Below, in pieces: positions 4,286 through 7,468 of a stretch of 51,696 bases of DNA (positions within the stretch are counted from its first letter, which is position 1; every line of letters starts with the position of its first letter). The translations under genes were made by a program, and so were the position numbers. The DNA comes from a virus: IMG/VR virus record IMGVR_UViG_3300035670_000297, positions 1 to 51,696 of that record; one strand, given 5' to 3'. The notes beneath the pieces were generated by a model. The model searched no databases and had not been told where the DNA came from. It was given only the letters and a program-made list of their open reading frames with translations.

Positions 4286-4494
4286 CCCGCATTGCCGACT
4301 GCATTGACATCCTCACCAAAGCCGGATGGATCTACGAAGGCAGCACCAAGATCGAGGGCATCCGCTGCTACATCATGCGCAGGCGCAGCGATGGTGACCC
4401 TGCCGTCCAACAAGGCGTCATCTACTTCACTACCTACGGACTGCGACGTGAAGCAGAGAAGGAACTCAGCAAGCATGAAACTCATTTCGCTTGA
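4282..4494 (+). CDS. Unknown small protein (70 aa)
   Basis: ATG 4282 is preceded by GGAGA (4270-4274) and overlaps the upstream stop (ATGA). The product begins MTRIADCIDILTKAGWIYEG and resembles a small winged or RHH-like fold, with a helix, then strands (RCYIMRRRSD, VIYFTTYG) and a final helix. It overlaps the DNA polymerase start by 20 bases, indicating translational coupling. The family is unrecognised. Confidence 0.65.
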   Translation: MTRIADCIDILTKAGWIYEGSTKIEGIRCYIMRRRSDGDPAVQQGVIYFTTYGLRREAEKELSKHETHFA

Positions 4495-6826
4495 CATCGA
4501 GACCTACGGTGCATGCACCCATACCCACGATGGACGACCGCTCCCCACCCAGACGGTCTTCCATCCAGCGCGCGCCCTCCATACGGACGCGGTGTCCCCC
4601 CAGGACATGGTGCTCTCAGTCAGCGTGACCACCGAAGCAGGCAGTTGCCCATGTGGCAAGCGGCGTGGTCAACCTGAGTTCTCCCCATGCTGCACAATGG
4701 TCATGTACCCCCACTCACACATGATCCACATCCGCAAGTGGATTGAGTGGGCGACCGACATCCTCGGCATGAACCTGCCCTTCGACCTGCAGTTCCTCCG
4801 CCACTACTCACCCGGCCTGCGCCTCGCCCTCCATGGCAGGCACACCCTGCACGATCTCTCGATCCTCAACTACTTGCACTCCGAGCTGCGCCCCGAGCGT
4901 TCGCTCAAGTCCCTCGGCCCCGTGCTCGGCACCCACGCCTACGACCGCACCATCAAGGATGGGAAGTTCAAGTCCCCCCACGATCCGCAGTTCATTGCAT
5001 ACGCAGCACAGGACACACACAACACCATGCTTGCTGCGCGTGAACTGAGGCGACGCATCTACGCCGACTGGCCCGACTCCGGGAAGCTGAGCCCAGAGGC
5101 GGTCAGGCATTACTCCTCCCTCATCTGGACCGTGGTCACCATGGCCGAGGCCGGCATCCCCATGTCCCGCCCCATGCTCGAGACCCGACAAGCCCTGCTG
5201 CAGAGGAAGGCCGACCTCGCCATCGCCCAAGCCGGGCGCCTTGGCCTGCTGCTCGAGGGCACCGGCTCCTCGAAAAGCAAGGAGGCTTTCCTAGATGTGA
5301 CAATAAGTAAACTCGCAGCTCTAGGTGTTGACATTTTATCACACCCCCTTACCCAGTTCACGGAGAAGACGCGTCGTCTCTCCTGGTCAGATGGCAACCG
5401 CCAACTCATTGCTGCTCACCTACCCGCTGACTCGCCCGAGGCTCGTGGCCTTTGGCTGGCCGGCATTCACTCACGCGCCCAGAAGCAGCTCTCCTCTTAC
5501 CTCTACCCCCTACTCCACGGCAGGCGCAACAAGCCGGAGGACAAGGGAGATACGGTAATCCCATGGACGAACACGAAGAACCCAAGTTCCACATCAACGT
5601 CACCTTTGAAACCCAGTTGGACAAAGAGTCCTACCGGGTCACACTCCCCCTCGACGACCTCGCAGAAAGAGTCGTCTCTCTCCACCGACCCTACCTGCTT
5701 GACAAGAACCTGCTCATGCAGGCGATTGCATTCACGGTCATCAGCATGCTCCAGCAAAACGAAGACGACTACATCAGGGAGCGAACGGGCGCCGTCGTGC
5801 TGCGAGCAGAAACCCTGCGACTCGCCAAGCACATGCAGATCATCGTTGACTCCTTCGCAGATGGAATCGAGATCAAGCACACCAGCAAGCTCATCGAGAT
5901 CTCGGACGAAGAAGAGAACGAGGACGACGGAGCCTAAGGCAACGGGCGCCGCCTACCCCGTGTGGTTCATCGTGCCCTCCGCATCCAAGGATGCATCGGG
6001 TGACGAGGGTGGCACCATCCAAGCTCGCATCACCTGCAAGCGTCCTTCGGCCCAGACCTTCCCCCCTGAGATCAAGCAGTGCATCCAATCCAGGTGGGTG
6101 GGGGGACGCATCATCTCGATGGATCTCTCGCAGATCGAGCTTCGGATGGCAGCCCTCTGCTCTGGTGACCCCAGCCTGCTGGCCGCCTTCAACACAGGGC
6201 TGGACCTCCACACCCACCGGGCAGTCCAGCTGTTCGGCCAAGACTCCATCACTCGACCCACCTTCAAGAAGCGTGAGCGGCAGGTGGGCAAGACCATGAA
6301 CTTCGCCGACCTCTTCCTGGCTTCCCCCCAGCGAATGAGGATGTCGGTGCACGAGATGACTGGTGAGCTGATGCCCCTATCCTTCTTCGAGGAAGTGGCC
6401 CGTTCGCGCCCGGATGCGCGTCCCGGTCTCCACAGGTGGCAGCAGTCTCTCATCAGTCGGGTAGCCACGGACGGCTACCTCCTTTTGCCTATCCTTGGTC
6501 AGTCCCGCACATTCGTGGGGGGACCATCAGCCCACCTCAATGAGGTGGTCAACTTCCCCATCCAAACCCAGGCCAGCAACACCCTGATCCAGATCCAGAG
6601 CCGGCTGCTCGAGTACCTGCCCAAGCTCTACACCCAGGGACCCAGGCCCCTGATGTTCCTGCAGGTATACGACGCCATCTACTTCGATGTCCCCCCACAG
6701 TACGAAGACTCCTTGAAGGCTGCGGTCCAGCAGGCGGTGTTGGATGTCGCCTCTCCCTCCGGATACTGGGGCAGGCTGCAGGAGTATTACGGAAACCAGG
6801 TTCCCTTGGAGTACGAGATCGACTAG
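4475..6826 (+). CDS. Family A DNA polymerase with 3'-5' exonuclease, interrupted by a nested gene
   Basis: ATG 4475 places the exonuclease motif I (LDIET, D7/E9) at the usual distance. Exo II is GMNLPFD (N100, D104) and Exo III is YAAQD (Y176, D180). Polymerase motif A is MDLSQIELR (D550, E555), motif B is R602-x3-K606-x3-F610, and motif C is VYD (D733). The frame is 783 codons, but residues about 364-487 are a serine-, threonine- and arginine-rich nonsense-like stretch because another gene (5563-5937) occupies that DNA in a different frame. Removing it leaves about 660 residues, normal for phage enzymes. Motif C has Tyr where His is usual, and motif B lacks the usual Tyr-Gly. The gene is either read through, split or bypassed. 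Confidence 0.85.
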   Translation: MKLISLDIETYGACTHTHDGRPLPTQTVFHPARALHTDAVSPQDMVLSVSVTTEAGSCPCGKRRGQPEFSPCCTMVMYPHSHMIHIRKWIEWATDILGMNLPFDLQFLRHYSPGLRLALHGRHTLHDLSILNYLHSELRPERSLKSLGPVLGTHAYDRTIKDGKFKSPHDPQFIAYAAQDTHNTMLAARELRRRIYADWPDSGKLSPEAVRHYSSLIWTVVTMAEAGIPMSRPMLETRQALLQRKADLAIAQAGRLGLLLEGTGSSKSKEAFLDVTISKLAALGVDILSHPLTQFTEKTRRLSWSDGNRQLIAAHLPADSPEARGLWLAGIHSRAQKQLSSYLYPLLHGRRNKPEDKGDTVIPWTNTKNPSSTSTSPLKPSWTKSPTGSHSPSTTSQKESSLSTDPTCLTRTCSCRRLHSRSSACSSKTKTTTSGSERAPSCCEQKPCDSPSTCRSSLTPSQMESRSSTPASSSRSRTKKRTRTTEPKATGAAYPVWFIVPSASKDASGDEGGTIQARITCKRPSAQTFPPEIKQCIQSRWVGGRIISMDLSQIELRMAALCSGDPSLLAAFNTGLDLHTHRAVQLFGQDSITRPTFKKRERQVGKTMNFADLFLASPQRMRMSVHEMTGELMPLSFFEEVARSRPDARPGLHRWQQSLISRVATDGYLLLPILGQSRTFVGGPSAHLNEVVNFPIQTQASNTLIQIQSRLLEYLPKLYTQGPRPLMFLQVYDAIYFDVPPQYEDSLKAAVQQAVLDVASPSGYWGRLQEYYGNQVPLEYEID
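5563..5937 (+). CDS. Gene nested inside the polymerase frame, acidic protein (124 aa)
   Basis: ATG 5563 to TAA 5937 encodes a balanced, clearly protein-like acidic product (starting MDEHEEPKFHINVTFETQL, ending in a Glu/Asp tail) with normal codon bias, in the +2 frame relative to the polymerase. GGGAG at 5545-5549 could serve as a somewhat distant ribosome site. The 375-base length is a multiple of three, so the polymerase frame remains in register. The protein has predicted strands, a helix (KNLLMQAIAFTVISMLQQ) and a basic-amphipathic helix. There are no HNH, GIY-YIG or LAGLIDADG motifs and no intein motifs. The family is unrecognised; similar acidic phage proteins can mimic DNA, but that is a guess. 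Confidence 0.7.
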   Translation: MDEHEEPKFHINVTFETQLDKESYRVTLPLDDLAERVVSLHRPYLLDKNLLMQAIAFTVISMLQQNEDDYIRERTGAVVLRAETLRLAKHMQIIVDSFADGIEIKHTSKLIEISDEEENEDDGA

Positions 6827-6835
6827 GCTGGTGGT

Positions 6836-7468
6836 GTGCGCCGCGAGTACACCATCCTCACCGATACGAGGGAGCAGACACCGCTCTCCTTCCCAAGCCA
6901 CCTACCCCTGCTCGATCCCAACCGGCAGCCCCAGTCCCGCACCTCCCTAACCGTCAAGCTGGGGGGACGCACCCAGAAGCTGGACGCAGGAGACTACGCC
7001 CTCGAGGGATACGAGCGGGTCTGTCTCGTCGAGCGCAAGGGCAGCATCAGGGAGCTGGCCAAGAACTGCCTGACCGCAGACCGCACCCGATTCATTGCGG
7101 CCCTCGACCGACTGCGTGCAGCCTGCCTCCATCCCTACGTCCTAGTGGAGGGCACCCTCACGGACATGGCCCAAGACCCCAACGTCCCGGACTGGTGGAC
7201 TGCACTCGACTCACTCCAGAGGCTGCTGCTTGAAAGAAACATTGGCCTCATCTTCTTACCAAACAAGGGCGCCATTCAGCGCCGGATGATTGGGGAGTGG
7301 GTGGCTCGCCTCTTGGTGAACTCCTCGCTTTCCCCTATACTTCCCGCTATCACCCCTGAGGAACCCCAATGTCCGACCACGTCACACTTGTCACCCAGCG
7401 CCGACCCCTCCGCCTCGCCCGAGAGGACGCCAACACAACCGTCATCGCAGCAGGCACTGACATCGTAG
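6836..7468 (+). CDS. ERCC4-type (XPF/Mus81-like) nuclease
   Basis: The product carries the ERCC4 nuclease signature: an N-terminal Asp-Thr-Arg-Glu (D10-R12-E13, in LTDTREQTP), GDY at 52-54, and the catalytic E66-R67-K68 (LVERKGS), followed by the helical RFIAALDRLRAACLHPYVLV segment. Such proteins cut branched or flapped DNA in recombination and replication intermediates. GTG 6836 is the first plausible start, nine bases after the polymerase stop, with a weak ribosome site. The last 33 residues are proline- and serine-rich and overlap the next gene by 100 bases, which suggests the 3' end was altered when the adhesin cassette was joined here. Confidence 0.8.
   Translation: MRREYTILTDTREQTPLSFPSHLPLLDPNRQPQSRTSLTVKLGGRTQKLDAGDYALEGYERVCLVERKGSIRELAKNCLTADRTRFIAALDRLRAACLHPYVLVEGTLTDMAQDPNVPDWWTALDSLQRLLLERNIGLIFLPNKGAIQRRMIGEWVARLLVNSSLSPILPAITPEEPQCPTTSHLSPSADPSASPERTPTQPSSQQALTS

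Follow-up and report, generated by a model that had tools for sequence, protein, structure and literature searches.

The family A DNA polymerase gene of this phage probably carries a dual-coding insert, one reading of which would give a read-through polymerase with a disordered loop while the other, initiated internally, would give a small separate protein. The window, that is, the whole stretch of DNA analysed, is a virus record of 51,696 bases and was read as phage from its terminase and replication genes. In the reading that we favour, ribosomes starting at 4475 would pass through the insert and produce a single 783-residue polymerase, in which about 120 disordered residues, rich in Ser, Thr, Lys and Arg, form a linker in the thumb-palm loop; initiation by other ribosomes at an internal Shine-Dalgarno (SD) site and ATG would yield a separate acidic protein of 124 residues. 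The nested frame would be the ancestral gene, conserved in its residues, and the polymerase frame through the insert would merely be kept open and polar. Most likely no unusual mechanism is needed for this beyond straight-through translation and internal initiation. The parts of the locus are the following.

4475–6826, + strand: family A DNA polymerase ORF of 783 aa, ATG 4475 to TAG 6826, stop-free through the insert on translation
4475–5557, + strand: polymerase N part, 3'-5' exonuclease and thumb; the alignment to relatives stops at residue 361
5543–5550, + strand: Shine-Dalgarno-like AAGGGAGA 5' of the nested start, anti-SD duplex -8.4 kcal/mol
5558–5944, + strand: Ser/Thr/Lys/Arg-rich linker in the polymerase frame, residues 362–490, predicted to be disordered (pLDDT <50 at residues 367–483)
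5563–5937, + strand: nested gene for an acidic 124-aa protein, ATG 5563 to TAA 5937, with a homologous 129-aa ORF at the equivalent site of L001
5945–6826, + strand: polymerase C part, palm and fingers with motifs A, B and C, assigned by identity to relatives

The initial annotation had described an out-of-frame ORF within an intact polymerase gene whose frame it does not close, and its coordinates and frames proved to be exact. Relative to the nested frame, the polymerase is read at +1, each polymerase codon consisting of nested positions 2 and 3 and the following position 1, and translation confirmed that 5563–5937 reads as a Ser/Thr/Lys/Arg-rich stretch in the polymerase frame. The polymerase motifs are intact on either side of the insert, as had been claimed; the ORF matches Pfam DNA_pol_A (2.1e-21) and phrog_17 (8e-46), and the PolA palm-fingers domain, motifs A, B and C and the PolA fold were all recovered by Pfam, PDB profile matches, AF2 and Foldseek. 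An AF2 model of the polymerase built with 26 relatives in the alignment had a mean pLDDT of 82.7, with 542 of the 783 residues at 90 or above, and its Foldseek matches were the Bst, Klenow and Taq PolA enzymes. Residues 367–483 all fell below 50 in this model and the remainder was confident. Based on the predicted elements H321-347 and E491-493, the model places the insert in a variable loop that joins the final thumb helix to the first strands of the palm; as modelled, an unstructured stretch can be borne there without touching the conserved motifs. An ERCC4-type nuclease gene (6836–7468) lies directly 3' of the polymerase.

The same arrangement was found in L001, a contig from an independent metagenome, which carries a homologue of the nested gene at the equivalent site of its polymerase and in which the polymerase frame is again free of stops. 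The nested ORF of L001 (129 residues, ATG 5595 to TAA 5984) is preceded by the ATCCCATGG junction as in the window, and the thumb-palm gap measures 405 nt in L001 vs 384 in the window. Over their alignment, the nested proteins share 24% identity (BLASTP E 8e-9 in a single pairwise comparison), in contrast to 78% identity for the N part and 82% for the C part of the polymerase; with insert-free relatives, the window shares 57–61% and 64–70% of these two parts, respectively. The shared arrangement and the difference in identity indicate that the insert is real and held in common, and that the nested gene is fast-evolving. Misassembly, which had been named as a possible refutation, is ruled out by the identical arrangement in the independent L001 contig. 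Aligning the polymerase to its homologues for the boundaries of the insert, as the initial annotation had proposed, showed that most relatives carry a loop of just 8–20 residues at this site.

The two frames appear to be kept in different ways. When the nested protein was held constant and its synonymous codons were resampled, using the codon usage of the whole genome, of local genes or of the polymerases themselves as reference, the polymerase frame was stop-free by chance in 0.2–2.5% of cases for the window and 0.4–2.2% for L001, varying with the reference; of 901 segments of 375 nt taken from the window's other genes, 22 were stop-free in the equivalent frame. The same resampling predicts 47 Ser and Thr residues in the polymerase frame of the window and 53 in that of L001, compared to 57 and 69 observed, and 27 and 29 hydrophobic residues, compared to 16 and 12 observed. 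In the nested frame, the window and L001 align with a score of 91; preserving the polymerase-frame residues alone lowers this to 31 on average (z 7.4). Their alignment in the polymerase frame scores about as shuffled residues do (z 0.6). Conservation of the Ser/Thr-rich insert as amino acids, a second finding that would have spoken against the original claim, was thus looked for, and the polymerase-frame inserts of window and L001 align no better than shuffled ones. These values and the composition argue that the nested frame is kept as a protein and the polymerase frame just as an open polar stretch. Both frames would then be under selection, the nested one through residue conservation and the polymerase one through openness and composition, and strong support for such dual selection is limited to the window and L001. 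The asymmetry recurs in the same residue-keeping test for two further pairs of relatives, strongly in L078/L079 (z 11.2 in the nested frame and 2.5 in the polymerase frame) and more weakly in L130/L150 (z 3.3 and 1.3).

It could be argued that the Ser/Thr linker alone is real, with the nested ORF arising as an unexpressed by-product of its low-complexity sequence. The variable loop does hold linkers of 31–75 aa without any nested ORF in relatives of the L066, L069, L070 and L093 type, and in L122 and L130 an open nested frame is expected anyway given the polymerase residues. We nevertheless consider this explanation very improbable for the window, since the nested frame is the residue-conserved one in the window and L001, and since the probability of an open nested frame given the polymerase amino acids is 0.07 for the window, 0.02 for L001 and 0.0008 for L112. 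Moreover, the third position of nested codons is C in 51–62% of cases, close to the 48–49% of the polymerase's own codons, and an SD site and ATG are present; the likeness in codon usage speaks for an ancestral nested frame. Openness must be read with care in the most C-rich relatives, L119, L122, L130 and L150, in which codon usage by itself leads one to expect an open +1 frame (P 0.46–0.77), so that it carries information chiefly for the window, L001, L121 and L078/L079. For the same reason we do not claim every nested ORF as selected. A hydrophobic ORF in L068 could itself be the shadow of a Ser/Pro-rich linker.

With respect to expression, the SD-like sites AAGGGAGA in the window and AAAGGAGA in L001 stand 12–13 nt 5' of the nested ATG. 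The pairing energy with the anti-SD sequence beats that of 93% of background positions in the window and, at -8.7 kcal/mol, that of 98% in L001, and most nested starts across the relatives have an SD-like site before them. We infer that both products are made from the overlapping frames. The initial annotation had offered three possible products, namely a polymerase with a disordered insert, two half-proteins or a protein made by skipping the insert, and it is the first of these that is best supported; half-proteins do occur in the relatives L125 and L117, but the gene of the window has no conserved restart, and skipping is unsupported.

If the polymerase were split, the nested gene would be translated and the palm-fingers half made by re-initiation, giving two polymerase chains and a small protein. 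Split polymerases with a small gene between the halves are known (MEP401, PMC10580990; phage 25 gp43, PMC2988022), and two relatives of the window, L117 and L125, have a truly split enzyme. In L125, the N part ends at a TGA that overlaps the ATG of a GroES gene (ATGA; gene at 1922–2254, Pfam Cpn10 6.5e-10, phrog_3188 2.4e-8), and the palm half has its own SD and ATG, restarting at AAGGAGtaagcATG / AAGGAGTAAGCATG. In L117 (468–2217), about 1.7 kb with several small genes lies between the polymerase halves, the first of these genes being nested in the +1 phase in the N half. A polymerase-frame stop combined with a separate start for the C half is found in L125, but in neither the window nor L001. 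The only in-frame restart candidates 3' of the nested stop in the window are GTG 5960 and GTG 5972, both without an SD, and the equivalent of the first is GTC in L001; within the region tested, L112, L122 and L150 have no in-frame restart codon near the C part. Continuous translation is therefore the simplest route to the palm half. In addition, the openness and polarity of the polymerase frame would be needless in a split enzyme, and for the window we regard a split as unlikely. L117 and L125 do show that a single polypeptide is not obligatory in this lineage. The polymerase frame of L119 contains a single TGA.

Removal of the insert by RNA splicing, protein splicing or ribosome bypassing would restore a polymerase of ordinary length, and the initial annotation had pointed to in-frame ACG codons at 5552 and 5942 as a possible hop signal. 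Bypassing has a precedent in T4 gene 60. Both ACG codons are indeed present in the window; their equivalents in L001 are ACT 5584 and ACC 5995, however, so the proposed signal is not conserved. A group I or II intron was rejected as the window has no Rfam match at the gathering threshold, and an intein as there is no Pfam match and the Ser/Thr linker sits in a variable loop. One relative, L141 (3343–4356), carries an in-frame insert in the polymerase O-helix motif (between RQVGK and TINFADLF, ending in LLTHN) that looks like a typical intein from its sequence; the family's intein-like insert thus lies in the conserved O-helix and not in the thumb-palm loop. As an open polymerase frame would also be superfluous if the insert were removed, we give this explanation next to no credence.

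The nested protein has no recognizable relatives beyond this locus. HNH, GIY-YIG, LAGLIDADG or other known domains were absent at any meaningful E-value in Pfam and PHROGs. The profile search and structure prediction that had been proposed for the 124-residue protein were both run, the former without a known domain and the latter giving, from two sequences, a poor AF2 model (pLDDT 49) that was too poor for a fold search. Standalone homologues were not found in viral_contigs, in the ORFs of the first loci or among cultured phages, and in 27 whole relative records the only copies were those of the window and L001. A search for flanking direct repeats as insertion scars gave short matches only, with nothing convincing at the two junctions. 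Comparison with the nested protein of L079 (SW z 3.4, p 0.006; hhalign E 0.019) is only suggestive of kinship. For the nested product, an accessory role as cargo seems the most likely one, ahead of polymerase regulation or mobile nuclease activity. The idea that the nested protein controls the polymerase it interrupts did not gain support; unrelated genes, including one for GroES, fill the same loop elsewhere, which argues against a dedicated regulator.

The closest known architecture is that of the ShiLan domain and the Pacc40 gp60 insert, hidden out-of-frame HNH endonucleases in phage DNA methylases (PMC11855218). There, as here, the insert is stop-free in the frame of the host enzyme and encodes a complete protein in another frame, ending with the insert; read in the host frame it is disordered, it belongs to neither introns nor inteins, and its distribution is patchy. 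By comparison with insert-free relatives, the window likewise combines a stop-free host frame with a complete ORF in another frame that spans the insert. The expectation that such a nested gene would be new is consequently only partly right. By analogy, the nested gene of the window could be a selfish element, a diverged homing endonuclease spread by homing and tolerated because the host frame stays open, and the shared architecture and patchy occurrence among relatives fit this proposal. We consider it distinctly improbable: Pfam and PHROGs gave no HNH, GIY-YIG or LAGLIDADG match; the window protein, with zero cysteines, has none for zinc fingers and does not resemble an HNH endonuclease bearing them; and other loci hold transmembrane proteins and GroES. 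The initial annotation had already seen no homing, intron or intein motif in the nested protein, and this was borne out by Pfam, PHROGs and Rfam. Active homing should leave near-identical elements in patchy hosts, whereas nested proteins with 24% identity between flanks of about 80% are the opposite of recent homing. Further differences from ShiLan are the host, a polymerase here and a methylase there; nested proteins that are not HNH; unrelated genes recurring at one loop, with SD-like sites at most nested starts; a nested gene that is old and diverged; and a series that extends to truly split polymerases.

Variation of the loop among relatives places the dual-coding insert in a broader setting. 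Relatives were found via short peptide patterns, and a palm-half search of IMG/VR gave at least 30 loci, at least 26 of them clear full relatives; in most palm-half matches, about 10 residues separate the thumb (KPEDKSSTVLP) from the palm segment (GLAFPVWYPVP). Loop length was measured with thumb and palm profiles in 96 distinct polymerases among the matches listed, and the counts are accordingly not natural frequencies. Among these, 70 had a loop of at most 21 residues, five had 24–32 residues, ten had 64–74 residues without a nested ORF, and 11 had a loop of at least 264 nt with a start-to-stop out-of-frame ORF (the window, L001, L112, L117, L119, L121, L122, L125, L130, L150 and L068). All nine unsplit carriers have the polymerase in the +1 frame of the nested gene, and the coordinates put the first insert of L117 in that phase too. 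In tblastn, the ORFs of the carriers were mutually unrelated except for those of the window and L001 and, weakly, L130 and L150; they comprise soluble proteins, two-helix membrane proteins in L130, L150 and L068 as read from sequence, and GroES in L125. On a palm-half tree the nested state is scattered, well-supported branches forcing at least four changes, although some branches are long.

A second nesting site lies between exonuclease and thumb (L078:1292–1564 and L079:2211–2501). Here, a Ser/Thr-rich polymerase-frame insert of about 95 residues, absent from the other aligned relatives, coincides with a nested gene of 90–96 residues in the +1 phase, the two proteins being 41% identical. Further out-of-frame ORFs with apparent transmembrane stretches were noticed at L068:4047–4286, L121:2256–2588, L060:3861–4178 and L062:3654–3989; all fall within the N-terminal polymerase half, inside or close to a third variable region rich in Ser and Pro, and could be low-complexity shadows.

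Loops of this polymerase lineage may serve as general cargo slots, into which small non-mobile genes have been captured whole in the +1 phase, some captures later splitting the polymerase as with GroES in L125; we hold this to be about as probable as its opposite. In the dual-coding reading that we favour, the thumb-palm loop would already be an insertion-tolerant cargo slot of the lineage, filled repeatedly by unrelated small genes, and insertion into it would have led to splitting in some relatives. The recurrence of the +1 phase could follow from the tendency of the +1 frame of C-rich genes to be open and Ser/Thr/Pro-rich, and since the +1 phase of such a gene reads as an open, polar and disordered linker, capture may have been nearly neutral at once. 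In L066, a relative with a short loop, a GroES-like ORF (1629–2084) lies 5' of the polymerase, suggesting that the GroES gene of L125 could have entered its polymerase from a neighbouring position.

Interrupted replication enzymes have been described in other phages. The OM43 phages MEP401 and MEP402 have split family A polymerases (PMC10580990; OP830906 gp13/gp14/gp15), in which PolA is likewise interrupted by a small gene of unknown function; unlike here, there are two separate polymerase ORFs, and the break in MEP401 is just before motif A, further downstream than the insert of the window. In Aeh1 nrdA/mobE, T4 gene 60/mobA and phage 25 gene 43 (reviewed in PMC2988022), a foreign gene similarly interrupts an essential replication enzyme that still works; those enzymes are split into two polypeptides, by a homing endonuclease gene in the case of nrdA and gene 60, whereas the host frame here runs through. 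The spacer of the hepatitis B virus polymerase, which overlaps PreS (PMC9093120), resembles our case in that a disordered, variable spacer in a viral polymerase is the other reading of a conserved gene; virus and polymerase are unrelated, and the likeness is a functional analogy alone. Our search of an open-access library turned up no description of a phage DNA polymerase with nested genes other than those for nucleases.

The polymerases described here offer a concrete, recurring example of an essential replication enzyme whose gene harbours complete genes in a shifted frame. Since intact, looped, dual-coded and split forms can be compared among the relatives, two questions become testable, namely how long same-strand overlaps originate and how split polymerases evolve. 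For annotation, our findings carry a warning, as gene callers will probably lose one of the two readings, either the nested gene or the polymerase that runs through the insert. If the loops are indeed cargo slots, they would represent a route to nested genes that does not depend on homing, and one by which split enzymes may be born.
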